Made by a program: the position numbers and the translations under genes. A stretch of DNA of 64,000 bases from Ruania suaedae (lineage in GTDB: Bacteria; Actinomycetota; Actinomycetes; Actinomycetales; Beutenbergiaceae), in contig NZ_CP088018.1 of assembly GCF_021049265.1 (NCBI RefSeq), positions 2,542,001-2,606,000 of the forward strand, in the 5' to 3' direction. The notes beneath the pieces are model-generated. The model searched no databases. It had not been told where the DNA came from and saw nothing but the letters and a program-made list of their open reading frames with translations. Shown one piece after another: positions 46,807-64,000 of this stretch; the first letter of the stretch is position 1, and every line of letters starts with the position of its first letter.

Positions 46807-47973
46807 GTGAAGATCGCCGTTGTCGGTACCGGATACGTCGGCCTGTCCATCGCGGCGCTGCTGGCCCAGCACCACGAGGTGGTCGCGCTCGACATCGATG
46901 CTTCGCGCGTGGACCAGGTCAACGCCGGCGGGTCGCCGATCACCGATACCGAGCTGGAGGACTACCTGGCCTCGGGGAACCTGCGGTTGCGCGCCACCCT
47001 CGACCAGCGTGAGGCCTACGAGGGCGCCGAGTTCGTGGTGGTGGCCACCCCCACGAACTACGAGGAGGAGACCAACTCCTTCGACACCTCCACGGTGGAA
47101 TCGGTGATCGCCGATGTCGCGCGGATCAATCCGGACGCGGTCACCGTGGTCAAGTCCACGATCCCGGTGGGCTTCATCGACACGATCCGGGCCGCCCACC
47201 CCGACGTCCACGTACTCTTCTCCCCCGAGTTCCTGCGCGAGGGCCGCGCCCTGGCCGACAACCTGCACCCCACCCGGATCGTGGTGGGCGACCGCTCCGA
47301 GGCCGGCCGGCGGTTCGCCGACCTGCTGCTGGAGGGCTCGCTGGACGAGGACGTGCCCGTGCTGCTCACCGACGCCACCGAGGCCGAGGCGATCAAGCTG
47401 TTCGCCAACACCTTCCTGGCGCTGCGGGTGGCCTACTTCAACGAGCTCGACACCTTTGCCGCCACCCGTGGGCTCGACCCCGAGCAGATCATCCGGGGGG
47501 TGGGCCTGGATCCGCGGATCGGCACCCACTACAACAACCCCTCCTTCGGCTACGGCGGCTACTGCCTGCCCAAGGACACCAAGCAGCTCCTGGCCAACTA
47601 CCAGGAGGTGCCACAGAACCTGATCCGCGCCGTGGTGGACGCCAACACCACCCGCAAGGACTTCATCGCTGCCGACGTGCTACGCCGCGGCCCCGAGGTG
47701 GTGGGCGTCTACCGGCTGGTGATGAAGGCAGGCTCGGACAACTTCCGCACCTCGGCGATCCAGGGGATCATGAAGCGCATCAAGGCCAAGGGCGTCGAGG
47801 TGATCGTGTTCGAGCCGAACCTGGAGGAGGAGCACTTCTTCCGCTCCCCGGTGGTGCGCAACCTCGACGAGTTCAAGGCGCGGGCCGATGTCATCCTCTC
47901 CAACCGGGTGCACGAGGATCTCGCCGACGTTCCGCACAAGGTGTACACGCGGGACCTGTACGGGCGTGACTGA
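46807..47973 (+). CDS. ugd: UDP-glucose 6-dehydrogenase
   Basis: 388 residues, the same length as E. coli Ugd. N-terminal Rossmann motif [22 protein letters not shown]-linked [14 protein letters not shown], sugar-binding [19 protein letters not shown], and catalytic Cys in [19 protein letters not shown]. Oxidises UDP-glucose to UDP-glucuronate with two NAD+. The GTG at 46807 follows AAGGAG with 6-nt spacing. It opens the right-hand envelope cluster and supplies a uronate donor. Confidence 0.93.
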
Positions 47974-47996: not shown

Positions 47997-49031
47997 TCAG
48001 CTGGTCGTGCGGCCTGCTCCGCTCATGGCGTCGATCAGCATGCCCGCCACGTCGCGCTCCTGGCCCTCCCACGGGAAGTGGTGGCCGGAGATCATCGGGC
48101 TGGAGTTGATCTCGAGGATGGAGGGAGCACTCCCCCGGCCGCCCCGAGGCAGCAGCATGTCCAACCCGGCCAGCCGCAGGCCGGGGATGGCTCGCACCGC
48201 ACGTTCGGCCAGCTCGATCTCATCGGGCAACAGCTCGTCGGTGGCGTCGACGCCGTCACCGCCGCTGTGCACATTGGAGTTGGAGCGCAGCCAGACCCGC
48301 TCGCCGGCCGGTGGGACCGACTCCAGCGTCAGCTGCTGCCGAGCGAGCTCGCGGTGGGTGAGCTCGTCGATGACGAGCTCGAAGTGGGTCGGGTTCTTCG
48401 AGCGCACCCGCGCGCGGTTCTTCGCGGTGATGAGGTGCTCGACGGTGTGCCTGCCGTCGCCAATCACGTTCGCCGGCAATCGGCGAGCCGCAGCGGCCAC
48501 CTTGCCGTAGACCATCAGCACGCGGTGCTCCTCGCCGTCCACGAACTGTTCGACGAGCACCTCCCGCGCCTGGTCCGAGACCGCCGTGAAGGCCGCGTGG
48601 AAGGCATCCCGATCGTCGATGTTCAGGTGCACCAGCTCCCCGGACCCGCCGCTGTTGGGCTTGACGACGACCGGGGCGATCGCCTCCGCCCAGGCCCAGG
48701 CGCGCTCGGCCTCGCCGGCCGAGAAGACCGCATTCTCGGGAGCCCGCAGCCCGTAGGAGCGCAGCAGCCGGCTCGTGATGTCCTTGTGCAGCGCGCACCG
48801 GCGGGCCAGTGCGCCGTTGAGGTTGGTCTGGGCGCCGTTGAACCGGCGCAGCGTGCCGCCCAGGGTCATGGTCAGTCGCTGCTGGGAGTCCGGGTGCAGC
48901 TCGATGCCCCGCGCCATCGCCCGATCGGCGAGAAGGGAGTTGGTCAGACCGGTGTGGATCCCGCGCTTGCGCAGGTAGTTGCGCGCGGACCGCAAGCTCG
49001 CCGGCTTCGAGCCGGAACTCTCTCGTGGCAT
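47997..49031 (-). CDS. Cyanophycin-synthetase-like ATP-grasp ligase
   Basis: 344 residues. ATP-grasp fold with the nucleotide-binding Lys in APVVVKPNSGGSGE, VLVEQFVDGEEHRVLMVYGK, the CphA-like IGDGRHTVEHLITAKNRARV, LESVPPAGERVWLRSN, and the metal ligand pair E-x-N in ILEINSSPMISG. It resembles the ligase half of cyanophycin synthetase and GshAB rather than D-Ala-D-Ala ligase. Expected reaction: ATP-dependent amide bond formation between a carboxylate and an amino acid. It lies on the minus strand between two plus-strand nucleotide-sugar dehydrogenase genes, and shares three motifs with the ligases at 53211 and 62091. Confidence 0.82.
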   Translation of the reverse strand: MPRESSGSKPASLRSARNYLRKRGIHTGLTNSLLADRAMARGIELHPDSQQRLTMTLGGTLRRFNGAQTNLNGALARRCALHKDITSRLLRSYGLRAPENAVFSAGEAERAWAWAEAIAPVVVKPNSGGSGELVHLNIDDRDAFHAAFTAVSDQAREVLVEQFVDGEEHRVLMVYGKVAAAARRLPANVIGDGRHTVEHLITAKNRARVRSKNPTHFELVIDELTHRELARQQLTLESVPPAGERVWLRSNSNVHSGGDGVDATDELLPDEIELAERAVRAIPGLRLAGLDMLLPRGGRGSAPSILEINSSPMISGHHFPWEGQERDVAGMLIDAMSGAGRTTS

Positions 49032-49127: not shown

Positions 49128-50387
49128 GTGAGCGCAGATGTCGTCATCGTCGGAATGGGCTACGTCGGCCTTCCCCTGGCGCAGGAGGCGGCTCGGCAGG
49201 GCCTGTCCGTGATCGGGTTCGACATCAAGCAGGACGTGGTGGACGGACTCAACGCCGGCCGCTCCCACATCGACGATCTCGCAGAGTCCGACATCCAACG
49301 GATGCTGGAGGCCGGATTCCGGGCCAGCACCGACGAGTCGGTCCTGGCCGAGGCTCCCGCCGTGGTGGTCTGTGTGCCGACGCCGCTGGCGCGCGACGGC
49401 GCACCGGACCTGGGCGCCGTGACCGGAGCGGTAAGCACGATCGCGCGCAACCTGCGCCCGGGCATGCTCGTGGTGCTGGAATCGACCACCTGGCCGGGCA
49501 CCACCGAGGAGATCGTGCGCCCGGTGCTGGAGGAGGGGGGCCTGACCGTGGGTTCCGACATCTCCCTCGCCTTCTCCCCCGAGCGCATCGACCCGGGCAA
49601 CCGCACCTACGGCGTGCGCAACACTCCCAAGGTGGTGGGCGGCGTGACCCCTGCCTGCACCGAGCGAGCGACGGCGTTCTACCAGCGGTTCATCGACACC
49701 GTGGTGCCCGCGAAGGGCAGCCGGGAGGCGGAGACAGCGAAGCTGCTGGAGAACACCTACCGTCACATCAACATCGCGCTGGTCAACGAGATGGCCCGGT
49801 TCTGCCACGAGCTCGGGATCGACCTGTGGAACGTGATCGACCTGGCCGCGACGAAGCCGTTCGGGTTCCAGGCCTTCTATCCCGGCCCCGGTGTGGGCGG
49901 GCACTGCATCCCCATCGATCCGAACTACCTGAGCTACACGGTGCGCACGCGCCTTGGCTACCCGTTCCGGTTCGTGGAGCTGGCGCAGGAGGTCAACTCC
50001 AGCATGCCGGCCTACGTCGCGCGCCGCGCCCAGGACATCCTGAACGAGGATGCGAAGGCACTGCGTGGCTCGCGGGTGCTGCTGCTCGGTGTGACGTACA
50101 AGCGCAACATCGCCGACCAGCGTGAGTCCCCGGCCGTCCCCCTCGCGGAGTACCTGCAGGAGTGGGGAGCCGAGGTCAGCTTCCACGATCCGGCCGTGGC
50201 CACCTGGAACCTGCCCGACGGGCCGTTGGAGCGCGTGCCGGATCTGGCCGAGGCCGTTGCCGGGGCGGACCTGGTCATCCTGGTGCAGAACCATGACGCC
50301 TACGACGTCGAGGCGTTGGCCGAGAGCGCGCGGTCGTTCTTCGACACGCGAGGCGTGACCACGTCCTCGCAGACCCACCGCTTGTGA
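49128..50387 (+). CDS. Nucleotide-sugar dehydrogenase (UDP-N-acetylmannosaminuronate/WecC-like)
   Basis: 419 residues. Rossmann motif IVGMGYVGLPLAQEAARQG, SLAFSPERIDPGNRTYG, KLLENTYRHINIALVNEMAR, and catalytic Cys in PGPGVGGHCIPIDPNYLSY. These features place it with WecC/WbpA dehydrogenases, which oxidise UDP-ManNAc or UDP-GlcNAc to the uronic acid, distinct from the Ugd-type enzyme at 46807. The GTG at 49128 follows AGAAGGAG. Confidence 0.87.
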   Translation: MSADVVIVGMGYVGLPLAQEAARQGLSVIGFDIKQDVVDGLNAGRSHIDDLAESDIQRMLEAGFRASTDESVLAEAPAVVVCVPTPLARDGAPDLGAVTGAVSTIARNLRPGMLVVLESTTWPGTTEEIVRPVLEEGGLTVGSDISLAFSPERIDPGNRTYGVRNTPKVVGGVTPACTERATAFYQRFIDTVVPAKGSREAETAKLLENTYRHINIALVNEMARFCHELGIDLWNVIDLAATKPFGFQAFYPGPGVGGHCIPIDPNYLSYTVRTRLGYPFRFVELAQEVNSSMPAYVARRAQDILNEDAKALRGSRVLLLGVTYKRNIADQRESPAVPLAEYLQEWGAEVSFHDPAVATWNLPDGPLERVPDLAEAVAGADLVILVQNHDAYDVEALAESARSFFDTRGVTTSSQTHRL

Positions 50388-50574: not shown

Positions 50575-52029
50575 ATGCGCGTCGCAACTCTGGTTGAAGT
50601 GATCGGATCACGCAGCGACGTCCACTACCGCGGCGACCCGGAAGCACAGTTCCGAGGAGTAAGTTATCGCTTGCGCCGCAGCATGCGCCCCGGGCAGTTC
50701 ATCGTCCTGGTCGACTCGGCCTGGGGACGTGGGGCAATCGAGAAGTATGGAATCGACCAGGAAAAGACTCCCGAGTACGTGCAACGCTGCATCGAAGCAG
50801 GTGTCGCCGGATTCATCTGCAACAAAGAGACTGCTCAACTGGACCACCTGGCACGCCAGAATGTCATTCAAGCCGACAACACCATGGATGCCGTCTACCG
50901 AATGGCAGAGGCGATCAGAGATGCGCGCGGCAGCCGACGCATCGCCACCATCACGGGCTCGGCCGGCAAATCTTCCACCAAAGCTATGCTGACCCATGCT
51001 CTGACGGCGACCGGAGACTCGGCACGCGTCTTTTCCCCGCCGAGTTCTCAGAACATTGCGACGTCAATACTCAGCCACTACTGTCGCATCGATCAAGCTG
51101 GTCACAACGTGATCGAGGTCGCTGGCTCCGCCTTCCGCTCGTTCCAGCGAAACGACTTCGCGCTGGGTTCGGACGTCAGCATCGTGACGAACATCTCCGA
51201 GGCACATCTCGACTATCTGGGCGATCTGCGCGGCGTTGCCGAGCAGAAGTCGCACATCTTCGACGGGACACCGGTCGGCGGCGTAGCGATCATCAACGCC
51301 GACACACCCCATGCGGACCTCTTGATTGAGCATGCAGTGTCAGAAGGTCGTCAGCTCGTGACCTACGGCGAGCACTCGTCCGCGACCTTTCGCCTCATCG
51401 ATTACGATCCCGATTCAGGTCGGGTCGTGGCGCGAGTGGGGAGAGAAGAGGTGTCGTATCGCCTCGGCGCACCGGGACTCCACATGGCTCTCAACAGCCT
51501 CGCGGTCCTCGCAACCCTTCGTTGCTACCGTATTCGTGACTGGCGACGAGGCATCGACTCGTTGGCAGACTTCCTGCCACTCTCGGGCCGGGGAGAGACG
51601 AGTGAATTGACGCTCGCCAACGGCGCCACGGTCTCGTTGATCGATGACGCGTACAACGCGAACCCGTCTTCGATGCGAGCCGCCTTGACCGCACTTCTCC
51701 AGCGCGTGGACGGTGACCGCCGCAGCGTTGCGATCCTTGGCGACATGTTGGAATTGGGAAGCGAACCCCAGCGATACCACGACGACCTGGTTCACTACCT
51801 CCGAGACAACCCTCCCGCCGTCGTGCATCTCTATGGCGACTACATGCGTGGCGTCTACACCGAACTCTCCAAGCACCGCCGGGATATCCAGTTCTGGGAA
51901 AGCGTTGCCGAGCTGGAGGCGAGCATCTCAACAAACAGCAAGTCCGGCGACGTCATTCTCGTGAAGAGCTCCAACGGAACCGGGCTACATGAGCTGGTCG
52001 CGGGTCTCAAATCGAGCGCCACAGCCTGA
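50575..52029 (+). CDS. MurF-like Mur ligase family protein
   Basis: 484 residues. N-terminal substrate domain (about 1-115, RRSMRPGQFIVLVDSAWGRG), central ATPase with P-loop ITGSAGKSSTKAML (MurF-type proteins have GSxGKTTT here), VTNISEAHLDYLGDL, and GAPGLHMALNSLAVLATLR. The C-terminal domain has the MurF hallmark IDDAYNANPSSMRAALTAL and AILGDMLELG. Mur ligases join amino acids or peptides to a carboxylate through an acyl phosphate. It lies outside any dcw cluster and among ATP-grasp ligases, so a role other than ordinary peptidoglycan synthesis is likely. The gene and the 187 bp before it are noticeably poorer in G+C than their neighbours. ATG preceded by AGGAAGAAG; ends 1 bp before the convergent operon. 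Confidence 0.85.
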   Translation: MRVATLVEVIGSRSDVHYRGDPEAQFRGVSYRLRRSMRPGQFIVLVDSAWGRGAIEKYGIDQEKTPEYVQRCIEAGVAGFICNKETAQLDHLARQNVIQADNTMDAVYRMAEAIRDARGSRRIATITGSAGKSSTKAMLTHALTATGDSARVFSPPSSQNIATSILSHYCRIDQAGHNVIEVAGSAFRSFQRNDFALGSDVSIVTNISEAHLDYLGDLRGVAEQKSHIFDGTPVGGVAIINADTPHADLLIEHAVSEGRQLVTYGEHSSATFRLIDYDPDSGRVVARVGREEVSYRLGAPGLHMALNSLAVLATLRCYRIRDWRRGIDSLADFLPLSGRGETSELTLANGATVSLIDDAYNANPSSMRAALTALLQRVDGDRRSVAILGDMLELGSEPQRYHDDLVHYLRDNPPAVVHLYGDYMRGVYTELSKHRRDIQFWESVAELEASISTNSKSGDVILVKSSNGTGLHELVAGLKSSATA

Positions 52030-52030
52030 C

Positions 52031-53221
52031 CTACATGCCGGAATGCGCGCCCGTCAGTGGGCGCAGCACCACCAGCATGACGCTCTGCTGCTCGACATCC
52101 CCATCGAGAAGCTCGTTCGTCAGTCGTGCGATCAAGCCTGCCTCACCGGAGAAGCGCCCTTCGACCAGTCCGCCGAGCGTATCGATCCGGGTGATCTCGC
52201 TCGCGAGACCGATAGCAGTTGCTGCCGCCGCGATGGCCTCACCGCCCCGGTCCGGGTCAGGCAGCGAATGAGCCTCGAAGGCGACGTCCACCTCACCGAT
52301 GGGCTCAGCCACCGTCCAGCCAGAGGCTGAGGCATACCGGTGGACAACCTCCTCGCTCAGGCGCTCCGCGAGGGCAGGGTCGACCTTTGCCTGGACCGAC
52401 AGACCGGCCCGCTCAGAGAACTCGACGACGCCCACGGTGCTCTCCTCGAAGGGAGCCGTGACGTCGGGGACCACCATGTCGATCGAGCACAGGCCAAGAC
52501 CGGGCAGGCCAGCACTCGCGCGCAGTGCGAGGCCACGGACGTCCTCGTGGGCGTCCTCGGTCACGTCCTCACCGCCGGTCATGCTGCCGTCGCTGGGCGC
52601 ACCGTGGCACCGCACGATCGACCGCACCTCACCGTCACTGACCAGGATCCGCAGGTACTCCCCCTCGAGCTGCTTCTCCACCATGAACATGTAGCCGGGC
52701 GGCACGACGATCCGGCCGTTCTCCTCACCGGGCTCGCGGAGCTCGGTCAGCCCGTAGGCGGAGCGATTGAACCCCTCACGCTCACTCGTCGGGTTGCGCA
52801 GGTACTCCAGCGCCGCATCGATTCCAGCATCGTCGTGGATGTCACGGAACGTCTCGATGCCGTTGTCACCCACGGCCGGCTTGACCACCACCGGGTAGCC
52901 CAAGATCGAGGCGGTGCGCTTGGCCGCCTTCACTCCCTTGCCGATCGTGAACGTTGCGCTCGAGGGAACCGGCACCCCATTGCGCTCCAGCAGTCCGCGG
53001 CGCATGCGCTTGTCCTGGGCGAAGGTCACCGGGCCGAGGCCACTGGTTCCCGGCAGGCCGTGGACGAACGATAGCTCGGCGCCATCTCCGGCCGGCACGT
53101 AGCAGACCTGCCGAGGGTAGACCTCGGCATCGAGGCCGGCACGCAGTACTGCCCGCAGTGCGAGGACGCCGTCCAGTTCCGCGGCGGGGACCGATGAGAG
53201 TGCGTGGGTATCAGCGGACAC
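52031..53221 (-). CDS. ATP-grasp protein with altered metal-binding motif
   Basis: 396 residues. ATP-grasp elements: FAQDKRMRRGLLERNGVPVP, the nucleotide Lys in GYPVVVKPAVGDNG, MVEKQLEGEYLRILVSDGEV and the late strand LGLCSIDMVVPDV. The expected E-x-N metal motif reads VVEFSERAGLS, with Ser in place of Asn, and the CphA-like GDGxxTxxEL and LESVPxAG segments of its neighbours are missing. It may therefore be a weak or inactive paralogue acting as a partner subunit. Its start overlaps the end of the 53211 gene by 11 bp. An additional C-terminal alpha/beta region (about 310-396) is not recognised. Confidence 0.75.
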   Translation of the reverse strand: MSADTHALSSVPAAELDGVLALRAVLRAGLDAEVYPRQVCYVPAGDGAELSFVHGLPGTSGLGPVTFAQDKRMRRGLLERNGVPVPSSATFTIGKGVKAAKRTASILGYPVVVKPAVGDNGIETFRDIHDDAGIDAALEYLRNPTSEREGFNRSAYGLTELREPGEENGRIVVPPGYMFMVEKQLEGEYLRILVSDGEVRSIVRCHGAPSDGSMTGGEDVTEDAHEDVRGLALRASAGLPGLGLCSIDMVVPDVTAPFEESTVGVVEFSERAGLSVQAKVDPALAERLSEEVVHRYASASGWTVAEPIGEVDVAFEAHSLPDPDRGGEAIAAAATAIGLASEITRIDTLGGLVEGRFSGEAGLIARLTNELLDGDVEQQSVMLVVLRPLTGAHSGM

Positions 53222-55790
53222 TGGTCAACTCCTGGGGTGCGCGGCGGACCGCTCGGAAGTCGGTGACGTCGGGCGGCTGAACGTGCTCTGTGGTGACCGA
53301 TGTCGGGCGGGACCGCGGCGAGCCCAGCACCGCCGCGGCGGCGAGAGCACTGACCGCGATGGTCTCTCCGACCAGCACCACCTCCACCCGTCTGCGGCTG
53401 ATGTTGCGGACCCACCCGGTCAGTCCGAACTCGACCGCCTGACGCCGCATCCAGCGGCGGTAACCCACACCGGTGACGCGGCCGCGCACCACCAGGCGCA
53501 GCGACAGCTGCTCGGCGTGCTGAGGCGCTACCTGGAGGTCATAACGCGCCACCGCCTCGTTCATGAACGTGCGGGCCACCTCACGGGGCGTGCCGTAGGT
53601 CGGGTACTCGCAGTTGCCGATGGCGGCGTGCGCGTTCAGCTCGCAGATGCCGGCTTCCTGCTCGCTGAGCGGCTTGTGGTGGTCCTCCAGCAGGAAGTCG
53701 ACGCCGCAGAAGGCGAGCCCCGGCACAGCCTTCACGGCGGCCACGGAGGCCTCCTTGATGCTGGGGTGCAGCTCATCGAGCACGTCGACCGAGTCACCAC
53801 CCTGCGAAAGGCTGCAGGTGTTGGACAGAATCACCCGGTCCCCGGCCTCCGGCACGCTCTCCAGCGTCAGCCCCGCGCGTGAGAGCTGATAGCGCGCAGC
53901 CGCCCCGTAGAGGATCGGGCGCCCCCACAGGTGCGGGTTGAGGCGACGAGTGGCGTTCTTGCGGATGATCAACTCGGCCACGTTGTGGACCCCATCGCCC
54001 ACCACCGAGGCCGGATCACGCAGGATCGCCGCGATCACCTGATCACCGATCACCACGATCCGGTAGTCCTTGCCGGGAATGTGCTTCTCGACGATGAAGT
54101 CCTGGCTGCCCAGCTTGCTCTCGCGCAGCTGGTCGAACGCGCTCTCGAGCTCGGTGCGGTTGCTGATCCCGGCCACCACGCCGATCCCGCGCACACCCAT
54201 GGCCGGCTTGACCACCACGGGATAGCCGAGCAGGTCGGCGAACTCTCGCGCGGTCGCGAAGTCACCATTGCGGAACGTACGCCCACGCGGCACCGGCACC
54301 CCGGCCCGGCCCAGGCGCAGCCGGGTGGCTTCCTTGTGCGTGGCGAGCGCCAGCGACGATGCGCTCGACATCGGCGAGCGGCTCCACTTGAACAGCAGCG
54401 GCTCGTGGACGCCGTCGGAGGCGTAGAACGCGCCCTTGGAGAACCGGACGGTCGACATGCCCAGCGCGAGCGCCTGCCGCTCGAGCAGGTGCCCCTTGGT
54501 GCCGTTGGGCCCCAGCGGCTGCAGGAAAGGTACCTCGCGGTAGACGTTGGGCTGTGGCCCGATCGTGGTCTCGGGCACGTCGGGCACGGTGATGCGATCG
54601 GTCACCGCATCGACGATCTCTTCCCAGGGCACGCCGACACCCAGGCCGGTACTACCGCGGGCCCCGTCCTGTCCCTCGGGCGGCTGAGCGACCACGCCCG
54701 CGACGCCGGGCACGGTCGCGGCGAGCTGACGCAGCGCCGCCGAGGCCACCGCCCCACCCGCTTCGGAGTCGACGATGTACAAGCGCCCTGATCCTTGGGC
54801 CGTCTCGCGGACCGCCACCTCGCGAGCGGTGAGGATCCCCCCCACCGCTGCCGGGCGGAGGGCCGCGACGCGGGTCAGGCGAGAACGCCCGTGGCGCATG
54901 ACTGCCCGGCCGCCTGCGGAGAGGTCGGTGGCGACGGTGAGGCTCACCCGGTCGGCACGTTCGACGATGTGCTGGATCTCCCGCAGCAGTGCCGGGCGAT
55001 GGTGGAGATCCTGCAGGCGCAACGCTCGGCGAAGCACGAGGTTCGGACTGATCTCACCGCGACCGGCGGCGGCGACCAGTGCTCGCACACGCTCCAGCAC
55101 CGCGTCGTAGCGGAGAGAACGTTCGAAGTCGAGCCAGATCGGGTGCTCGGAGTCGGACTCGTCGTGGTGCGCCTGCAACTCGTGGATCAGTTCCTCGGTG
55201 CCCATGCCACCCGCTGCCACGGGGGCCAGCACGGGGACGTCGCGCACCTGCGTCGAGAGCAGTTCGGAGATCGACAGCCCCATCGCCTGGGCGCACACAT
55301 CGAGCAGCGCGGTCTCGATGCCGAACAATGTGCCCGCGTAGGCGGGGACGTCCTCCAGGACACCGACGCGCTGCCCGGCCACGCGGGCCAGGCGCTTGGC
55401 GGAGCGGAGATCGAGCCGCCAGGAGGAGGCCAGCTGACGGTCCGTCTGACGAGCGAGGATTCGCAGCTCGTCCATGATCGCCCGGATCGAGTGCAGCGCG
55501 GTCGACCTGTCCCTGCAGTCGATCGAGCGGGTACCGAGCACACCGAGAGCCTGCTGGAGAAACTCCCAGGAGTGTCGGTTACGATCGCCGGTCTCGCTTC
55601 CGCGGAACTGCGCCTCGCCGACCCCGCGGAGCGGAGACGCCTCACGGGCCGCGCCCTCGATCACCACGATCGCGTTGGTGAATCGACGGCGCTTGCTGCC
55701 GCGGCCAATGGCTTCCGAGCGATAGCTCAGGGCTTGCAGACGCTCGAGGGTGACCGTTCTGGTCGCCGGCGTCACTTCAGACTGCACCAT
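53211..55790 (-). CDS. Enolase-superfamily-like domain / ATP-grasp ligase / acylphosphatase fusion
   Basis: 859 residues from the ATG at 55790. Residues about 37-370 resemble the enolase superfamily (muconate-cycloisomerase or methylaspartate-lyase type): GVGEAQFRGSETGD, the capping-barrel helix FGIETALLDVCAQAMGLSIS and AALRPAAVGGILTAREVAV; the usual catalytic Lys before the Pro of KPxxVGG is Arg, and metal ligands are not clear. Residues about 480-750 are a CphA-like ATP-grasp (GYPVVVKPAMGVRGIG, VVGDGVHNVAELIIRKNA, LESVPEAGDRVILSN, metal E-x-N in ICELNAHAAIGN). Residues about 764-845 are an acylphosphatase (LVVRGRVTGVGYRRWMRRQA, GLTGWVRNI). The ligase forms an acyl phosphate, so the fused acylphosphatase may proofread or discharge it. 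Central gene of the seven-gene minus operon. Confidence 0.82.
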   Translation of the reverse strand: MVQSEVTPATRTVTLERLQALSYRSEAIGRGSKRRRFTNAIVVIEGAAREASPLRGVGEAQFRGSETGDRNRHSWEFLQQALGVLGTRSIDCRDRSTALHSIRAIMDELRILARQTDRQLASSWRLDLRSAKRLARVAGQRVGVLEDVPAYAGTLFGIETALLDVCAQAMGLSISELLSTQVRDVPVLAPVAAGGMGTEELIHELQAHHDESDSEHPIWLDFERSLRYDAVLERVRALVAAAGRGEISPNLVLRRALRLQDLHHRPALLREIQHIVERADRVSLTVATDLSAGGRAVMRHGRSRLTRVAALRPAAVGGILTAREVAVRETAQGSGRLYIVDSEAGGAVASAALRQLAATVPGVAGVVAQPPEGQDGARGSTGLGVGVPWEEIVDAVTDRITVPDVPETTIGPQPNVYREVPFLQPLGPNGTKGHLLERQALALGMSTVRFSKGAFYASDGVHEPLLFKWSRSPMSSASSLALATHKEATRLRLGRAGVPVPRGRTFRNGDFATAREFADLLGYPVVVKPAMGVRGIGVVAGISNRTELESAFDQLRESKLGSQDFIVEKHIPGKDYRIVVIGDQVIAAILRDPASVVGDGVHNVAELIIRKNATRRLNPHLWGRPILYGAAARYQLSRAGLTLESVPEAGDRVILSNTCSLSQGGDSVDVLDELHPSIKEASVAAVKAVPGLAFCGVDFLLEDHHKPLSEQEAGICELNAHAAIGNCEYPTYGTPREVARTFMNEAVARYDLQVAPQHAEQLSLRLVVRGRVTGVGYRRWMRRQAVEFGLTGWVRNISRRRVEVVLVGETIAVSALAAAAVLGSPRSRPTSVTTEHVQPPDVTDFRAVRRAPQELTSVR

Positions 55791-56565
55791 GCCCGTTCTC
55801 TCCTGGTCCTGTCTTCCTGCCGCTGAGCGCAGCACGCTCGTGCCGGTCACGAATGTACGCGACGCTGGCCTCCGCCAGCGCATCCGCCGAGTCCCACACC
55901 GGCATCGCGATACCGGCCGGCGCGGGGCCCAGCACGGCCGAGATGTCGGTGCAGCCGTAGATGATCCCCTGCGCGCCCCGCTCGGCCAGCACGCGCGCGC
56001 CTTCGGTCAGCACTACGCGCGCTCCGTCCAGGTCGCCGGCCTTGACCGCCCGGATGCCGGACATCACCGGGCTCGCCGGGCCCAGGTCGGTCAGGTCCAG
56101 GAGCTCCAGCCCATGGTCGGCCAGCCGGGAGTACACCCCGGAGCGTGCGGTGCCGTCGGTGGACATCAGGCCCAGCCGGGTCACGTCGGCACCGCTGCGC
56201 CGGATCTGTTCCGCCACCGCGTCCACGATGTGCACTACCGGCACGGACGCCTCGTCCTGCATCGCCTCGAACCAGTAGTGGGCCGAGTTGCAGGGCACGG
56301 CGATGACACGGGCACCGGCCTCGCTCAGGAACCGGATCCCCCGGCGCAGCGCGGGCTCGGGGTCGGGCCCGCTACCGATCATCGCGTCGGAGCGGTCCGG
56401 GGTGGAGGGGTCGGAGTAGACCAGCGTGGCGATGTGGTCCTGATCGCGGTTGGCGGGCGTGCGCGCTGCGAGCTTCGCCAGGAAGTCCGCGGTGGCGGCC
56501 GGGCCCATCCCACCCAGGACGCCGAGCATCGGCCCGGCGGACGCGGGCATCACGTCAGTGGTCAC
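55777..56565 (-). CDS. Aspartate/glutamate racemase family protein
   Basis: 262 residues. PLP-independent racemase fold with both catalytic cysteines: VPCNSAHYWFEAM and GIIYGCTDISAVL; N-terminal LGVLGGMGPAATADFLAKL is typical of aspartate racemase. It would make D-Asp or D-Glu. The GTG at 56565 lies one base after the upstream stop; GTG 56553 or ATG 56550 (MPASAG) are alternatives. Its 3' end overlaps the ATP-grasp fusion gene by 14 bp, so the racemase and ligase are coupled, as with Racfm and the D-aspartate ligase Aslfm of Enterococcus faecium. Confidence 0.87.
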   Translation of the reverse strand: MTTDVMPASAGPMLGVLGGMGPAATADFLAKLAARTPANRDQDHIATLVYSDPSTPDRSDAMIGSGPDPEPALRRGIRFLSEAGARVIAVPCNSAHYWFEAMQDEASVPVVHIVDAVAEQIRRSGADVTRLGLMSTDGTARSGVYSRLADHGLELLDLTDLGPASPVMSGIRAVKAGDLDGARVVLTEGARVLAERGAQGIIYGCTDISAVLGPAPAGIAMPVWDSADALAEASVAYIRDRHERAALSGRKTGPGENGHGAV

Positions 56566-56566
56566 G

Positions 56567-57739
56567 TCACACCGGTTCCTCGACGACAACGGCGGGTGGT
56601 TCGGATCCCAGCTCGGTGTGGACGCCGCGCTCGGCGTAGTAGGCACGTACCCGCGGGTCGGCGAACAGCGGCTGGTGCGACTGCAGCACGTTGACGCCGG
56701 TGTTGATGTTGGCTTCCAGCACCAGCGGTCCCTCGGGACCGATCACGATGTCCCAGCCCACGTACTCCATGAAGGACAGCACCCGGGCGGCGTGCATCAC
56801 CAGGTCCCGGGTCTCCTGCCAGTACGGCAACACCACGCCCTCGATCTGCGCGCCGGTGTCCGGGTGCGCGTCGAACCACTCCTTGACGTTGCTGTCCGGC
56901 AGCCGGGTGGCCGGCCCCAGCTCCCCGGTCTCCAGATCGATCCGCGAGCTGAGGCCGCCGCGGCTCCAGTTGTCGGAGGGCTCGGCCCGCCGGCACCCGA
57001 TCCGCTGGACCGCGAGCGCGATGAACGGCTCGTACCCGTTGTTCACATCGAGCATCGTCAGCACCCGGACCGTGTTGACCGTGTTCGGGTACAGCCCGCC
57101 CACCACCTCGTGCTGGGCCAGGCCGCGCTCGACGATGAACGGCCGGTCATGGGTGCCCAGCAGCTGCTTCATCTGCTCCGGTGCCATCGCCTCACCGTTG
57201 GCCCGCACGGTGGTGGCATCGACCTTCTCGACCGCGACGATGTTCTTGCCCTCGGCGCCCGCGAGCACCTTGAAGAACACCTTCTCGCCCTCGGTCATCC
57301 GGCCCAGGAACTCCTCGATGGGCACCCGGCCCTCCGCGGGGAAGGGGTGCACGGCCCCGCGGGAGTAGAGACCGAGCAACTCCGGTGAGCGCACGTCCAT
57401 GGCACGCAGGAGCAGGTGGGTGGTCAGCTTGTTGTTGATGACGTCCTGCAGCCGGGCGTGCACCATGTACTTGGTGCGGAAGAGCCGCTGCAGGTCGGAG
57501 ACGTACTGGCCGTGGTCGGTGTGCTGCAGGTCGTAGAGCACCGCGCTGCGGGAGAGGAACCCCTTGAACCAGAACCGGGGGTGGCGCATCGCGAGCGGCA
57601 CCTGCCACTGGCGCTCTTTGCGAGCGAGCTTGCGCAGCTCCTTGAGCAGCACCCGCGCGGCACGCACCTTGCGCCGCACCCGCCCCAGCACGCCACGTAC
57701 CGGCCGGACGACGGCACCTACTGCACTACCTGCACTCAC
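56567..57739 (-). CDS. Sugar-transfer-associated ATP-grasp protein
   Basis: 390 residues. A basic amphipathic N-terminus (about 1-45) precedes the conserved HPRFWFKGFLSRSAVLYDL and an ATP-grasp fold with FFKVLAGAEGKNIVAVEK, FIVERGLAQHEVV, SRGGLSSRIDLETGELGPAT, YVGWDIVIGPEGPLVLEAN and the metal E-x-N in LEANINTGVN. This pattern is the family found in surface-polysaccharide clusters; it is thought to attach amino acids or similar groups to sugars, but no reaction is firmly established. One base separates it from the racemase gene, and 20 bp from the glycosyltransferase gene. Confidence 0.85.
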   Translation of the reverse strand: MSAGSAVGAVVRPVRGVLGRVRRKVRAARVLLKELRKLARKERQWQVPLAMRHPRFWFKGFLSRSAVLYDLQHTDHGQYVSDLQRLFRTKYMVHARLQDVINNKLTTHLLLRAMDVRSPELLGLYSRGAVHPFPAEGRVPIEEFLGRMTEGEKVFFKVLAGAEGKNIVAVEKVDATTVRANGEAMAPEQMKQLLGTHDRPFIVERGLAQHEVVGGLYPNTVNTVRVLTMLDVNNGYEPFIALAVQRIGCRRAEPSDNWSRGGLSSRIDLETGELGPATRLPDSNVKEWFDAHPDTGAQIEGVVLPYWQETRDLVMHAARVLSFMEYVGWDIVIGPEGPLVLEANINTGVNVLQSHQPLFADPRVRAYYAERGVHTELGSEPPAVVVEEPV

Positions 57740-57759: not shown

Positions 57760-59868
57760 TCAGGTACTCCGTTGCGCACTCAGACTCTCAGCGATGTCGA
57801 GTGCTTCATCGAGCGAGCACGACGGCACTGATGGCACAGACGGCTCGAACGTGAGGCTCACGGCGGCGGCCGGCTGGAACGCGTGGACGACTTCGATGAG
57901 GCGGCGGCGGAAGTACCCTGACCAGCCAGAAGTATACGCGGCGGCGATCGCGTCCTTCGGTGTCAGCGTCTCGATCGCCAGCCCGCTGCGATGCGCGGCC
58001 TCGATCCACACCGGCGGGGCCAGCAGCACCGGCCGGAAGGCGTTGCTCAGCACCGCCCGTTCGGCGATGGCGGCCACCGCTCCCTCGGCGGGCGGGCCGG
58101 CGGCGGTGACGACGAACAGGGCCGTCGGGCGTTCCTCGCCGACGGGTGAGGGCGGGGTGCTCAGCGCGGGCACCTCGGTGCTACGCAGGCGCAGCACGCC
58201 GGCCGGCATGAGCCGGCCCACCGCTTGCCCGTGCGCGGTGCGCGCCGCGCGCTTGGCCCGCACCCCCAGCCCGACGACGGGGCGTGGGGCCCGCTGGCGC
58301 AGCAGGTTCGCGCCGCGGCGGGCCAGGTCCTGCGGGGTGCGCCGGGCGGGAGCCTGCGCCGGCGCGGACGGTTGCTCAACCAGCGTCCACGGTGACGGTC
58401 GCTCGCCGGCCGGTGCGGCGCCGTCGGCCGTGCTGCGCACGGCGACCACCTCGATCGCGGGATCGAGTGCGCGCCGCACCCAGACGGCATCGCCGACCAC
58501 GGCCACCCGCCCGATGGCGCAGGTGGCCACCAGACCGGTGACGCGGGCGGTCAGGTAGCGCGCCCGCTCCCCCGCGGCGAGCTGCTCGGCCACGGCCGGG
58601 ATCGTCTCCACCTGATGCTCGGGCAGGTGGCCGGCCTCGCTCGCCGGCAGCAGCACGATCAGGGCCTCGGCGTGGTCGTCGGCCGGGCCGGCCACGGCCC
58701 CCAGCAGCGCCGCATCCGGCATCGTGCCGGCCTGCGGCAGGAGCAACAGGGTCCGGGGCGAGGGCTGCGCCGCATCGGCGCCGGGCGCGGCCGGAGCGGT
58801 GGCTTCCTCGGGCGGCCCGATCAGGTCGGCGAGCCGGCGGGCATGCGCCTCGTAACTGAAACGCTCGCGTACGAGCGCCACTCCGAGGGCGGATTGACGG
58901 CGGTAGGCCTCACCCTCGGGGGGCAGGCTCTCGATCGCGGCGCGCGCCTCCCGCACTCCGGCGTAGACGCAGGCGGGGCCGAAGGTGGGCTCGAAGGAGG
59001 GGTCGACCACGGCCACCGCTCCGGAGGCCAGGCCCTCGAGGACCGTGCGGCCGAAGGCCTCGATCAGGGAGGGGTGGTGGTAGTAGACGAGGAAGTCGAT
59101 CGAGGCGAGGAACTGCGCCGGCGTGACGGAGTTGAAGGGCAGGTCCACCCAGTTGGCCGGCAGGTGGCCGAGGATGTCCCGCGGGGCCTCGGTCCCGCCG
59201 AGCACCCGCACCGTGACGCGTGGGTCGTCCGGGTAGGCGGCCAGCACGTCCTCCCGGGTGGCCGGCCACTTGCTCCAGTGCCCGCGGCTGTGGCGGCCGA
59301 TCACTGGCCGGTCGGAGACGCCACCTCCACGCGGCTGGTACCAGGCGTCGACGTCGACGATGTTGGTCCAGTCCTCGGCCAGGACCGGAACCTGGCCGGC
59401 CCAGGGCGCCAGGGCCTCGCGCACGGTCGGCCCGATGGGGGCCCACACCGGCTCGCGGCGCCCGAACGCCCGGGCCGCCTGCTGGGTGGCGAGCACGTCG
59501 TAGTAGGGGGCGCGAGCGCGCGGGTCGACCGGGACCTGGTTGGCCACGATGAGCACGTGCTCGGCCTGTACCTGCGGCAGCCACGACGGCGGTGCGCCCA
59601 GCACGCTCGGGTGACGGATCACGAGCACCTTCGCGTGCACCGGACCGTCCAGGACCAGCTCGGCTGCACCGGACTCCACCAGGGAGCGGATCCTCGGTGC
59701 GAACGGGTCCCCGGGCCGCTGGATCGGCGAGGGCAGGTGCAGCAATCCGGTGCGGTAGCCGGCCCGGTGCTGGGCCAGGCACTCCTCCACCACGCTCGCC
59801 GTGGTCCCCCCCGGGAACCGGAGATCGGTCGCCATCAGCACGTCGACGGTGCGCGGCGCCTCAGTCAT
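57760..59868 (-). CDS. Large GT4-like glycosyltransferase
   Basis: 702 residues. The first about 350 residues form a GT-B glycosyltransferase: N-terminal VLMATDLRFPGGTTASVVEE, IGRHSRGHWSKWP, and the GT4 E-x7-E signature in LIEAFGRTVLEGLASGAVAV. The second half (about 355-702) is Ala/Pro-rich with a Rossmann-like start (RTLLLLPQAG), a basic helical stretch near residue 540 (LARRGANLLRQRAPRP) and a final alpha/beta segment (TALFVVTAAG); I do not recognise it. No signal peptide or membrane helix, so it acts on the cytoplasmic face. It overlaps the upstream 158-residue gene by 4 bp. Confidence 0.82.
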   Translation of the reverse strand: MTEAPRTVDVLMATDLRFPGGTTASVVEECLAQHRAGYRTGLLHLPSPIQRPGDPFAPRIRSLVESGAAELVLDGPVHAKVLVIRHPSVLGAPPSWLPQVQAEHVLIVANQVPVDPRARAPYYDVLATQQAARAFGRREPVWAPIGPTVREALAPWAGQVPVLAEDWTNIVDVDAWYQPRGGGVSDRPVIGRHSRGHWSKWPATREDVLAAYPDDPRVTVRVLGGTEAPRDILGHLPANWVDLPFNSVTPAQFLASIDFLVYYHHPSLIEAFGRTVLEGLASGAVAVVDPSFEPTFGPACVYAGVREARAAIESLPPEGEAYRRQSALGVALVRERFSYEAHARRLADLIGPPEEATAPAAPGADAAQPSPRTLLLLPQAGTMPDAALLGAVAGPADDHAEALIVLLPASEAGHLPEHQVETIPAVAEQLAAGERARYLTARVTGLVATCAIGRVAVVGDAVWVRRALDPAIEVVAVRSTADGAAPAGERPSPWTLVEQPSAPAQAPARRTPQDLARRGANLLRQRAPRPVVGLGVRAKRAARTAHGQAVGRLMPAGVLRLRSTEVPALSTPPSPVGEERPTALFVVTAAGPPAEGAVAAIAERAVLSNAFRPVLLAPPVWIEAAHRSGLAIETLTPKDAIAAAYTSGWSGYFRRRLIEVVHAFQPAAAVSLTFEPSVPSVPSCSLDEALDIAESLSAQRST

Positions 59869-60341
59869 CGCTCAAGTCTGCCATCTGCCCCACCGCGCCT
59901 GGCGACTGCGCGCACGGCTCGGCGCGCACGCCGGCGCACGCGCTGCAGCGCTGCCTGCGTGCGGCGGGCCGCGGTCCGCGAGGCCGGCACCGGCAGCCGG
60001 CGCAGCACGGCATCGACGTCGGCCGGTGCCAGGGAATCGACGGCCCGCACCTGGGCGCTGCCCCAGATCGCGCGGGCCTGCGCCAGGACCTGCTCGTCCG
60101 CGGCGAGGACATAGCGGCAGATCGCTGCGACCGAGGTGGTCAGGTCCGCGGGAGCGGCGGCCACGAGCACCGTGTGCAACCCGCGGCGCTCGATGTCGAT
60201 CAGCACCTCGATCAACGACTCGTCGAGGTGGGCAGGCCCTCCCGCCGAGGCGCCCGGCACCACGACCGTGCGCACCGCGCGCGGCGCCGACAGATGGTCG
60301 GCGGCGAGGGTCACCACGCTGGGGAACGAGGTCCGGCTCAT
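59865..60341 (-). CDS. Hypothetical protein in the ligase operon
   Basis: 158 residues. An alpha/beta-looking core (VRTVVVPGASAGGPAHLDES, GLHTVLVAAAPADLTTSVAA, ICRYVLAADEQVLAQARAIW) is followed by a strongly basic C-terminal helix (RRTQAALQRVRRRARRAVRA). Not recognised. The core is reminiscent of one half of a Rossmann or glycosyltransferase-like fold, and the basic tail could bind membrane or polyanionic glycan. Overlaps both neighbours by 4 bp, so it is surely part of the operon. Confidence 0.6.
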   Translation of the reverse strand: MSRTSFPSVVTLAADHLSAPRAVRTVVVPGASAGGPAHLDESLIEVLIDIERRGLHTVLVAAAPADLTTSVAAICRYVLAADEQVLAQARAIWGSAQVRAVDSLAPADVDAVLRRLPVPASRTAARRTQAALQRVRRRARRAVRAVARRGGADGRLER

Positions 60342-61969
60342 CGCGTGAGCTCCCTCGGGTCGGTCGCCGTCAGGGTGCCCTCGTACTCCCGGCACCACCG
60401 GCTCAGCACCGCCAGCCCGCGGATCAGGTGCTGCCCGCCGGTGGTGGAGAGCACCTGCTCCCACACCGCCGGTCCGCCCTCGGCCAGGCGGCGGGAGACG
60501 AGCGGGCGCACGGCGTCGGTGAGCACGAGGTCGCGGAGCCCGACGATGGCCTCCCGGGAGGTGATCCGCCGAGGATGGGGGCGCGGCCACGGCACGAGCT
60601 CCTGCGCGGTGGGCATGGCACCGAGGCGTGGATCGAGCCTGCTGGTGAACTGGGGGTAAAGGCGACCCTCGGCGTGCTCGCGCGGCGGCAACGCCAGGGC
60701 GGTGGCGACCACGGCCTCGCTCAGGAACGGCGTCGCCACCGGGCCGGTGCGGGCCATGAGCCCATGCGGGGCGAGGCTGATACCCGGCAGCGTGCGGCTG
60801 ACATAGGCGGTGAAGGTGTGACCGAAGGGGTGGTCGAGATAACGCTGCACCACCGGTTCGGCGCCGGCGATCATCCGCTCCCGCAGCCGTGCAGTGAGGC
60901 CGGGGGCCAGGACGTCCTCGGCTGCGGCCAGGTAGCGGGTCACCCCCGCGAGCCGGCGCTCGGCGAGCGGGGTGTCGGAGGAGTCGTCGGCGAACGCCCC
61001 GCCGACGAACAGCCCTCCGCCGAGGCCGTCCAGCACCGCGGCCGGTGCGGATGGCGGCAGGCTCTGACCGGTCTCGTGCAGGGCGCGTGCCAACGGGACG
61101 AGCCAGACATGGAAGGCGGTCTGGTGGTCCACCGACTCGGCGAAGTAGTCGAGGTCGGAAGCGAACCGGTCCCGGCGGGGCATGACGATCGTGTGCGGGA
61201 GGCCCCGGGTGGCCGCGACGCGGGCGGCGACGAGCTCCTCCATGGCGGTACCGGTGTCGGAGGACGTCGTGTACGCCCTCACCCCGTGCGGAGCGCCGGC
61301 ATCCAGCGCACCGGCGAGCAGCAGCCGCGAGTCCCAGCCCCCGCTGAGCAGGGAGATCAGCGGGCCGGACCGGGCCAGGTCGGCCAGCGTCTCGCGCAGC
61401 GCCGCCAGCACATCCTCGGAGGTGGCAGAGCCGATCGAGACCTCCGGCCAGCTCCACTCCTGCCGCACGGAGATCGTGCCGGCGGCGCTGCGGTGGACGA
61501 CCTCGCCCGGCTGCAGCCTGCGGATCTCGCGCACGAGGGTGCGCCCGCCGATCGGCCCGCTCGCGGCCACCATCTGCGCCACGGCGTCCCAGTCCGGGCT
61601 CGCCGGGGTGGTCCGGGTGCGGATCAGGGCATCGAGGCTCGAGGCGAAAGCGAGGGTGGTCTCGCCGAGCTCGACGTAGAGCGGAAGCGCACCCGAGGTG
61701 CTGCCGCGTAGCTCGACGCCGTCATCGGTGGTCCGGACCGTCACCTCGTCGTGGCCCCCGGCACCCGATGCGGGCCAGTGGCTCCACGCGATCCCCCGCG
61801 CGGCCTGACGTGCGCCCCGGCCCGAGGCCACGGCGTCGCCGGTGTCCAGCAGCACCGGGAGGCCACCGCACCAGCTCGCCAGCGCCCGCGCGCGCTCGCC
61901 GCGGTCACCGATCGAGCCGACGATCACCGGCGCCGCCTCCGCGCTGCGACCGGACTCAGCTGCTGGCAC
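60338..61969 (-). CDS. Asparagine-synthase-related ATP-pyrophosphatase-type amide synthetase
   Basis: 543 residues from GTG 61969. The N-terminal region (about 1-165) keeps the layout of an asparagine synthase glutaminase domain (GALPLYVELGETTLAFASSL, REIRRLQPGEVVHRS) but has no N-terminal catalytic Cys, so glutamine cannot be the nitrogen source in the usual way. The synthase domain has the PP-loop SLLSGGWDSRLLLAGAL and FLSEAVVATALALPPREH. Such enzymes adenylate a carboxylate and amidate it with ammonia or an amino donor. Start uncertain: AGGAGG at 61985-61990 is 15 nt from the GTG but exactly 6 nt from a CTG at 61978, and an ATG exists at 62071. First gene of the minus-strand operon. Confidence 0.78.
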   Translation of the reverse strand: MPAAESGRSAEAAPVIVGSIGDRGERARALASWCGGLPVLLDTGDAVASGRGARQAARGIAWSHWPASGAGGHDEVTVRTTDDGVELRGSTSGALPLYVELGETTLAFASSLDALIRTRTTPASPDWDAVAQMVAASGPIGGRTLVREIRRLQPGEVVHRSAAGTISVRQEWSWPEVSIGSATSEDVLAALRETLADLARSGPLISLLSGGWDSRLLLAGALDAGAPHGVRAYTTSSDTGTAMEELVAARVAATRGLPHTIVMPRRDRFASDLDYFAESVDHQTAFHVWLVPLARALHETGQSLPPSAPAAVLDGLGGGLFVGGAFADDSSDTPLAERRLAGVTRYLAAAEDVLAPGLTARLRERMIAGAEPVVQRYLDHPFGHTFTAYVSRTLPGISLAPHGLMARTGPVATPFLSEAVVATALALPPREHAEGRLYPQFTSRLDPRLGAMPTAQELVPWPRPHPRRITSREAIVGLRDLVLTDAVRPLVSRRLAEGGPAVWEQVLSTTGGQHLIRGLAVLSRWCREYEGTLTATDPRELTR

Positions 61970-62090: not shown

Positions 62091-64000
62091 GTGACCGTTG
62101 GCCGCCACGACGCTCCGACGCCCGGGCACGGCGTCGAGTCGCTCCTGCCGGCTGCCCTGGCACTGTTGGGCGAGCCTCGCCCGAACGGCTACGAACGCCG
62201 GCACGAGGTGCTCAAACGCGAGCTCGACGTCGTCCGCCTCGAGGAGGCAGCGCTGCGCCGCGGCCTGGAGAGCATCCGGATGGACCCGCTCGTGCGGGTT
62301 TTCCACGACGGCGCCTCCGCGCTGGGTTTCGTGAAGAACATGTCCTCCACCCTGCTCTACCTCGATCGCGCGACCACGAACCGCAAACCGCTCACGCGGC
62401 GGATTCTGCAGCGGGGCGGCGTCCCTGTGGCTCGTGGTGCCGAAACCGGCGACCCGGACGAGCTGGCGAGAGCCGTCGAGTCGATCGGGTGCCCGGTGGT
62501 GGTCAAACCCGTCACCGGAAGCGGTGGGAAGGGCGTGGTCACCGATCTGGCCTCGGTCGAGGAGGCGCAGGAGGCCGCCGCGGAGATCTTCGCGGCGGGC
62601 AAGCGGGTGCTGGTCGAGGAGATGGTGCACGGCGTCGACCTGCGGGTCAGCGTGGTGGCGGGGACGGCCGTCGCCTCGACCCTGCGGGTACCGGCGAGCG
62701 TGATCGGGGACGGCTCATCCACGATCGCCGAGCTCGCGGAGGCCAAGAACGAGCTCCGCGCCCGCAGCGACTACCTGCGCCACCAGCCGATCGTGCTCGG
62801 CCCCGACAAGGAGCGGTTCCTCGCCGCACGCGGGCTGAGCGCGGAGTCCGTACCGCCTGCGGGCCGGCCGGTGCTGCTGCACCACGTGGCGAACCTCTCT
62901 GCCGGAGGCGACAGCTACGAGGTTCTCCCCGTGCTCCATCCCGAGGTTGCCGCACTGGCCGAGCGTGCCGCGTCCTTCTTCCCCACCTCCCTGCACGCCG
63001 GGGTCGACATCCTCCTCGAGCGCCTGGATGCCCCGCTCGCCGAGCAGCACGCCGTGGTGTGCGAGGTCAACCTCAACAACGAGATGCCGATGCACGTCTA
63101 CCCCATGTACGGCACACCCGTCGCACTCGACGAGCTGGAGATCGCCGCCCACTGGCAGGCCGAGGCCGTGATCCCGTCCGCGTCGCTAAACGCCGAGACC
63201 GCCCCGGGCCCGGTCAGCGTGACGCTGGACGAACTGTGCGAGGACACCCGGATCTGCGCCACGGCTCCCCCGCCACAGCGGGAACCGGCACCTTCGGCCA
63301 CGCTCCAGAGCCTCGACGACAAGCACCTGCTCGCCGCGCTCGACCCCCTCCTCGACAAGGGGTGCGGGGCAAGGATCCCGGATGACGGACTGGTGCACCT
63401 GACCGGCAGCGGGGAGCGGGTCGCCGACCGATACGGTCGCACCGTGCTCGCCGGCGAGGTGGGCCGCACCCCCGGGGCAGTGCACCGCTACGCCCGGACG
63501 TCGGGCATCGACGTGGCGGACCACCACGAGCGGGCCGAGACCCCGGTCGATCCCGCGTGCGTCCTGCTCATGGACGGCACCACTCTCCTGGCGGCCCAGT
63601 TATGGGTTCCACTGACGGTGGCCGGGGACGGCGTCACCGCGCTGGGCGAGCTGGTGGAGCAGCAGCTCGCCACCCGCCGGTTTCATGCTCCGCTGGCCCG
63701 GTTCGCGGCCGGGCTGGAGGCGGCGGATCTACTCCTCACGCGCGGTCTCGAGCCCGCCACGGTCCCGGAGGATGGCGCGCTCGTGCAGGTGGGGCGCTCC
63801 CCCATGCTCTCCGACGGCGCCGCCACCCTCGGCCTGAGCGAACTGCCGTGGCCGGGCCTGACCGAGCTGGCGGCGCGGCTGGTCACCGCCATCGGCAGTC
63901 ACGGCATCGTCACCGTGGCCTTCGTCCCGCGGCGGCGGGACGGCAACCACGCGACATGGGCGTTGTGGCGCTACCACTGCGAGCCACCGCTGGCGCCGTT
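62091..64000 (+). CDS. Cyanophycin-synthetase-like ATP-grasp protein with second degenerate ATP-grasp half (3' end missing)
   Basis: The frame opens at GTG 62091, behind GGGAGG with 5-nt spacing, and has no stop to the window end: at least 636 residues. Residues about 95-350 are a CphA-like ATP-grasp: KPLTRRILQRGGVPVA, nucleotide Lys in GCPVVVKPVTGSGGKG, VLVEEMVHGVDLRVSVVAG, VIGDGSSTIAELAEAKNE, AESVPPAGRPVLLHHV and the metal E-x-N in VVCEVNLNNEMP. Residues about 425-600 repeat the later motifs in weaker form: LLMDGTTLLAAQLWVPLTVA-GDG then ALGELVEQQ, and TRGLEPATVPEDGALVQV, without a VVVKP lysine. That suggests a tandem, partly inactive second domain. Divergent from the asparagine-synthase-like gene, 121 bp away. 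Confidence 0.82.
   Translation, partial: MTVGRHDAPTPGHGVESLLPAALALLGEPRPNGYERRHEVLKRELDVVRLEEAALRRGLESIRMDPLVRVFHDGASALGFVKNMSSTLLYLDRATTNRKPLTRRILQRGGVPVARGAETGDPDELARAVESIGCPVVVKPVTGSGGKGVVTDLASVEEAQEAAAEIFAAGKRVLVEEMVHGVDLRVSVVAGTAVASTLRVPASVIGDGSSTIAELAEAKNELRARSDYLRHQPIVLGPDKERFLAARGLSAESVPPAGRPVLLHHVANLSAGGDSYEVLPVLHPEVAALAERAASFFPTSLHAGVDILLERLDAPLAEQHAVVCEVNLNNEMPMHVYPMYGTPVALDELEIAAHWQAEAVIPSASLNAETAPGPVSVTLDELCEDTRICATAPPPQREPAPSATLQSLDDKHLLAALDPLLDKGCGARIPDDGLVHLTGSGERVADRYGRTVLAGEVGRTPGAVHRYARTSGIDVADHHERAETPVDPACVLLMDGTTLLAAQLWVPLTVAGDGVTALGELVEQQLATRRFHAPLARFAAGLEAADLLLTRGLEPATVPEDGALVQVGRSPMLSDGAATLGLSELPWPGLTELAARLVTAIGSHGIVTVAFVPRRRDGNHATWALWRYHCEPPLAP

Follow-up and report, generated by a model that had tools for sequence, protein, structure and literature searches.

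A fused enolase-type, ATP-grasp and acylphosphatase protein in a candidate surface-polymer gene cluster of Ruania suaedae

Introduction

What can a single protein do that joins an enolase-type barrel, an ATP-grasp ligase and an acylphosphatase (AcP) in one frame? The question is raised by a gene at 53211–55790 of a 64,000 nt stretch (the window; contig NZ_CP088018.1, positions 2,542,001–2,606,000) from Ruania suaedae, a soil actinobacterium whose 3.56 Mb genome is a single contig. We consider it reasonably probable that the protein works as a peptide ligase in making a wall or capsule polymer that contains amino acids, and that a retired epimerase has been kept in it as a scaffold or peptide-holding domain.

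Acyl-phosphate ligases, whether ATP-grasp or Mur in type, are responsible for building much of the bacterial surface, and to our knowledge no dedicated proofreading domain has been established for them. In the family described here AcP occurs fused to ligases of both kinds, and so does a dipeptide-epimerase fold. Because some members keep the catalytic residues and others have lost them, AcP editing and the role of a retired epimerase are both testable on natural variants. The surrounding cluster is a sign that several actinobacterial genera may make a surface polymer with amino acids that is so far undescribed.

Results

The fusion frame

The frame comprises 859 uninterrupted codons, with a Shine-Dalgarno-like AGGAG 9 nt upstream of the ATG. 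Its layout is as follows.

53211–55790 (−): three-domain fusion gene, 859 aa; open frame with Shine-Dalgarno-like AGGAG, orthologues in more than 10 other genomes
54516–55760 (−): residues ~10–425, enolase-superfamily domain (muconate cycloisomerase/dipeptide-epimerase type), catalytic residues lost; from the family profile, AlphaFold2, Foldseek and the residue table
53532–54494 (−): residues ~433–753, CphA/GshF-type ATP-grasp ligase domain; from profile, PDB, Foldseek and the residue table
53253–53516 (−): residues ~759–846, AcP domain; from Pfam; the catalytic residues are the Arg of GVGYR and the Asn of WVRN

The domains, their catalytic residues, their conservation and the gene order are the computed part of this account. 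A first-pass annotation of the window had already proposed one 859-residue frame with three domains; domain matches, family profile and predicted structure agree, and all the sequence landmarks it named are present. The full-length prediction is compact (pTM 0.86). In a tree of the ATP-grasp domain the protein falls in a clade of 17 (support 98/94), nearest to its orthologue in Ruania rhizosphaerae, a placement that favours the reading given above; the closest relatives that have the gene are Ruania species. The order of the three domains is kept in 14 proteins of the clade. A chance or frame artefact is ruled out: these 14 all have the fusion as an open, collinear frame, and its conservation spans Ruania, Nesterenkonia, Glutamicibacter, Phytoactinopolyspora and Propionibacteriaceae.

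The ligase domain is invariant

Residues 475–746 match the CphA-like ATP-grasp family (NCBIfam, E 4.6e-65), and the best PDB match of the domain is CphA1 (7wac, E 2.8e-37; Foldseek 7wae, 4.3e-24). The P-loop Lys, the substrate Arg and the Mg-binding Asp, Glu and Asn are all intact (K528, R577, E717, N719 and the Asp of GVDFL). These five residues are identical across every fusion of the family with a fully covered domain, which upholds the earlier description of an ATP-grasp with intact nucleotide and metal motifs and supports a ligase function. They correspond to K261, R309, D431 and E450 of CphA1, which serve in ATP and Mg binding and acyl-phosphate stabilisation (PMC9427784). Amide bond formation via an acyl phosphate is predicted for the domain on this basis.

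The protein shares the sequence, fold and catalytic Lys/Arg/Asp/Glu/Asn of the G domain of cyanophycin synthetases CphA1 and CphA2, but lacks the CphA N domain and the fused MurE-like M domain, has the enolase-type and AcP domains, and carries Arg at the position of P-loop His267 of TeCphA1. A cyanophycin synthetase proper is excluded, at 220 bits against a cut-off of 877 and with only positions 204–471 of the 871 in the model matched.

The N-terminal domain is an enolase-type barrel without its catalytic residues

The enolase-like domain of the window protein has no Pfam match in its own sequence, and a single-sequence phmmer search of PDB with the N-terminal half returned chloromuconate cycloisomerase at only E 0.006. 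Relatives of the domain are recognised directly: an orthologue (L006:9959–12577) lies above the MR_MLE_C cut-off (E 1.6e-8), paralogues match MR_MLE_C at 1e-11 to 1e-19, and one relative matches the dipeptide epimerase 3rit at 1.4e-9. Iterated searching of the relatives' loci found the domain in more than 20 proteins, and a 22-sequence family profile matched muconate lactonizing enzyme (5e-20) and dipeptide epimerases (3e-15 to 8e-14) in PDB. The AlphaFold2 model of the domain (pLDDT 85.6, pTM 0.88) has the predicted capping domain and modified TIM barrel of the enolase superfamily, to which all of its best 50 Foldseek matches belong (TM-score normalised to target 0.52–0.68). Family profile and predicted structure together exclude a non-enolase fold for residues 1–425; the earlier note had named a structure other than a TIM barrel, or a better-matching unrelated fold, as fatal to its assignment, and neither was encountered.

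Of the three acidic metal ligands (Asp, Glu, Asp), the first Asp is present, the Glu is replaced by Arg and the third Asp is only loosely aligned. The strand-2 segment that should hold the catalytic Lys (KxK) is deleted, and the strand-6 Lys is Arg (LRPAAVGG). The first-pass annotation had doubted activity on account of this Arg, a doubt that now extends to the loss of both lysines and the metal Glu. None of the 14 domain-bearing clade members has the full catalytic set, as against 8 paralogues that have all of it (strand-2 Lys as RxK, Asp, Asn, Glu, Asp-Glu and strand-6 Lys, with all three acidic metal ligands); this also favours a retired epimerase. Sequences from Ruania and Phytoactinopolyspora have a deletion that removes the strand-2 Lys segment, and the metal Glu is gone in many clade members. 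The loss is graded: the Nesterenkonia-related L045 has one Lys left, and its metal positions are occupied by acidic residues. Of 14 clade members, 13 have Arg where the strand-6 Lys would stand, and the capping-loop TGD, aligned with that of dipeptide epimerases, is present in 10 of 11 aligned orthologues.

The N-terminal domain thus shares fold, sequence family and the TGD motif with dipeptide epimerases (L-Ala-D/L-Glu epimerase 1jpm; 3rit; 3r0k), but is fused to a ligase and lacks the catalytic Lys pair and metal Glu. Judged from these residue losses, the window protein is predicted not to be an active epimerase, and the earlier proposal that the barrel epimerises or eliminates does not hold for it. 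The proposal would fit sister fusions that carry the full catalytic set. Identity to the R. rhizosphaerae orthologue is 54 % in the barrel, 94 % in the ligase and 94 % in the AcP domain; to eight more distant orthologues it is 24–37 % in the barrel versus 54–79 % in the ligase. The barrel is therefore the weakest-constrained part of the protein, a further point for a retired epimerase.

The acylphosphatase domain

Residues 765–846 match PF00708 (E 1.1e-15; 58.1 bits against a cut-off of 22.5) and align to PDB 2w4d. The C-terminal AcP that had been read by eye is thereby confirmed: the ferredoxin-like domain, the Arg of the GRVxGVGxR loop and the Asn of WVRN are all present, so that the whole domain of free-standing acylphosphatases (2w4d/1v3z) is matched, but here it sits C-terminal on a peptide ligase. 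With these residues present, the domain could hydrolyse acyl phosphates. Arg and Asn are both intact in 11 of the 17 clade members; one or both have been lost in three separate lineages of the clade, with the ligase residues unchanged.

No second acylphosphatase was found in the whole genome, the fusion domain being its sole AcP match; across the order, 198 genomes were sampled and 117 of them have an AcP match. HypF is a known AcP fusion with other partners, and the AcP-bearing long frames found elsewhere (about 800–1100 aa) are probably HypF.

A small family of mixed architectures

The fusion is rare. Of 396 genomes sampled in the order 6 have it, as do 3 of 396 sampled across the phylum, this genome being one of those counted each time; within one family the figure is 5 of 197, all five of one genus. 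Related loci encode further combinations of the same parts.

Window fusion and relatives: enolase + ATP-grasp + AcP
L002:13726–17106: enolase + AcP + MurF-like; AcP degenerate (Val, Thr)
L003:18188–21394: enolase + MurF-like
L011:8280–12761: enolase + MurF-like + ATP-grasp
L006:13909–17523 (−), 1204 aa, and L007:13845–18206 (+), 1453 aa: enolase + PGA_cap (CapA) + ATP-grasp; the enolase-type epimerase domain looks intact

The CapA domains among these fusions are consistent with a role in polymer synthesis. Sister fusions tend to reverse the pattern of the window protein, having complete epimerase residues and usually a degenerate AcP. Among those with both a complete epimerase set and an AcP domain, the AcP residues are lost in 3 of 4; the reciprocity is thus a tendency and not a rule, since L033 retains both.

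In this genome no enolase–ligase fusion with an intact epimerase set was found; R. rhizosphaerae has two. Nine MR_MLE_C matches elsewhere in the genome were considered as an epimerase-fusion paralogue and rejected: all are distant from the cluster, their frames measure 318–556 aa, and none is therefore a ligase fusion. On plasmids, relatives were limited to ATP-grasp matches of CphA or CapA type at ~30 % coverage. A literature search that did not take in the 2009 amidoligase survey by Iyer and colleagues, the likeliest place for a prior mention, returned no paper combining ATP-grasp, acylphosphatase and the enolase superfamily. A small family that repeatedly mixes enolase, ligase and AcP parts is thus apparently undescribed so far.

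Gene neighbourhood

The following genes surround the fusion.

46807–47973 (+): second nucleotide-sugar dehydrogenase
47997–49031 (−): CphA-type ATP-grasp ligase, 344 aa (NCBIfam E 6.6e-68)
49128–50387 (+): nucleotide-sugar (UDP-sugar) dehydrogenase (TIGR03026, 1.6e-127); true start near 49128 within a longer frame
50575–52029 (+): additional MurF-like Mur ligase, with the canonical murF located elsewhere
52031–53221 (−): partner gene, 396 aa, paralogue of the ATP-grasp + AcP half; overlaps the fusion end by 11 nt
55777–56646 (−): Asp/Glu/cysteate-type amino-acid racemase (Asp_Glu_race, 2.8e-37; PCNS and GCTD Cys motifs); conserved neighbour
56567–57739 (−): sugar-transfer-associated ATP-grasp (ATPgrasp_ST, PF14397, E 2e-39); conserved neighbour
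57760–59868 (−): 702-aa gene, cluster-conserved; no Pfam/NCBIfam match, glycosyltransferase-like by eye
60338–61969 (−): asparagine-synthetase-like (AsnB) amide-forming enzyme (PF00733, 3.7e-7); conserved neighbour
62091–64000 (+): large ATP-grasp protein, 666 aa; extends 91 bases past the window, to 64091

The fusion gene overlaps its neighbours at both ends, with 14 nt of its start shared with the racemase gene, an arrangement that counts in favour of the reading given above. The racemase scores above the cut-off of the curated cysteate racemase CuyB (NCBIfam, 219.6 versus 190 bits), which would allow cysteate as the D-amino acid in place of Asp or Glu.

At nearly every locus examined the 396-aa partner gene adjoins the fusion. 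Its product lacks the omega insert, the Mg-binding ExN has become ExS (mostly SERP), and the AcP-like C-terminus is degenerate and without catalytic residues. In CphA1 the omega module recognises the incoming aspartate (PMC9427784); its loss suggests that the 396-aa protein is a structural partner.

Shared across genera are the racemase, ATPgrasp_ST, the partner gene, AsnB, further ATP-grasps, a UDP-sugar dehydrogenase, a Mur ligase and an ABC-2 exporter, which in this genome is a permease and ATPase gene pair directly past the large ATP-grasp gene, outside the window. This shared set speaks for a polymer pathway, and the combination fits an exported glycopolymer bearing amino acids. The first-pass reasoning made no use of this cluster context. 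By eye, the second half of the large ATP-grasp protein (62091–64091, +) resembles a degenerate second ATP-grasp domain.

Discussion

In the favoured reading, the fusion would act as an amide (peptide) ligase. Its cluster would produce and export a surface glycopolymer with amino acids in it, comparable in kind to teichuronopeptide or to poly-glutamate capsules. Within the fusion, the CphA-type ATP-grasp domain would turn a carboxylate into an acyl phosphate and couple an amino acid, plausibly in the D form and supplied by the overlapping racemase gene. The barrel would descend from a dipeptide-epimerase-like enzyme, its chemistry lost in the window protein, and, with TGD still in place, would most likely persist as a scaffold or to hold peptide. 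Acyl phosphate that strays or stalls may be hydrolysed by AcP, an activity that would not be essential to the family, and the 396-aa neighbour, a degenerate copy of the ligase half, is probably a structural partner. A complex with this partner, and the roles of both accessory domains, are what we infer.

Several points weigh against this account. The substrate, the product and the polymer are putative, the CphA likeness of the ATP-grasp leaves the amino acid unfixed, and the exporter and 702-aa gene assignments are loose. Intact AcP residues in 11 of 17 clade members exceed the expectation for a purely structural role. Metal binding, or chemistry of another sort, is still conceivable for the enolase domain given the residues of L045, and the conserved Arg of RPxxxGG might mark a domain whose function has changed and not a dead one.

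The strongest competitor, which we rate as a serious though not the leading possibility, is that the AcP fold and the barrel are merely structural or ligand-binding, the protein being a ligase with two architectural domains. Degeneracy of both domains in many relatives beside an invariant ligase is what this predicts, as are the AcP-like but residue-less C-terminus of the partner and the compact full-length model; retention of both AcP residues by 11 clade members, including three complete Ruania sequences, in an otherwise varied domain argues the other way.

The built-in editing raised by the first-pass annotation, with AcP hydrolysing the ATP-grasp acyl phosphates when the amine is wrong or missing, as proofreading or damage control, we regard as unlikely. 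In its favour, the AcP residues are intact in the window protein and most of its clade, AcP is fused to two unrelated acyl-phosphate ligase folds, ATP-grasp and MurF-like (L002:13726–17106), and R. rhizosphaerae has a free AcP that keeps both catalytic residues and is flanked on each side by such a fusion. Against it stand the three same-clade lineages that lost Arg and/or Asn while the ligase stayed untouched, and the AcP of the MurF fusion, itself degenerate. The free-standing AcP of that cluster has 96 aa (L002:17103–17393, +); the two enolase–ligase fusions flanking it both have degenerate AcP domains.

Somewhat more doubtful still is a modular ligase family in which AcP proofreads acyl phosphates and the enolase domain edits stereochemistry, the activities being split between sister proteins of one pathway, one keeping the epimerase and the other the AcP. 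A barrel that is still an enzyme, with new chemistry via the conserved Arg, seems improbable: Arg in 13 of 14 clade members and the retained TGD speak for it, but the strand-2 Lys segment is deleted in Ruania and Phytoactinopolyspora, the metal Glu is often lost and the domain diverges fast.

For a peptide ligase of a wall or capsule polymer, the nearest known systems are teichuronopeptide, which consists of polyglutamate and polyglucuronate (PMC8153356), and poly-gamma-glutamate capsules. With these the window cluster shares UDP-sugar dehydrogenases and amide ligases, but the ligases in it belong to the ATP-grasp, Mur and AsnB types. Nothing like CapB or CapC was recognised among the genes of the window cluster, and CapA/PGA_cap is absent from it, the sole PGA_cap gene of the genome lying ~1.2 Mb away. 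Sister clusters do share CapA (PGA_cap) domains with poly-gamma-glutamate capsule systems. Separately, one related locus (L027:4812–8222, +) joins BspA-type leucine-rich repeats, PGA_cap and ATP-grasp in a single frame.

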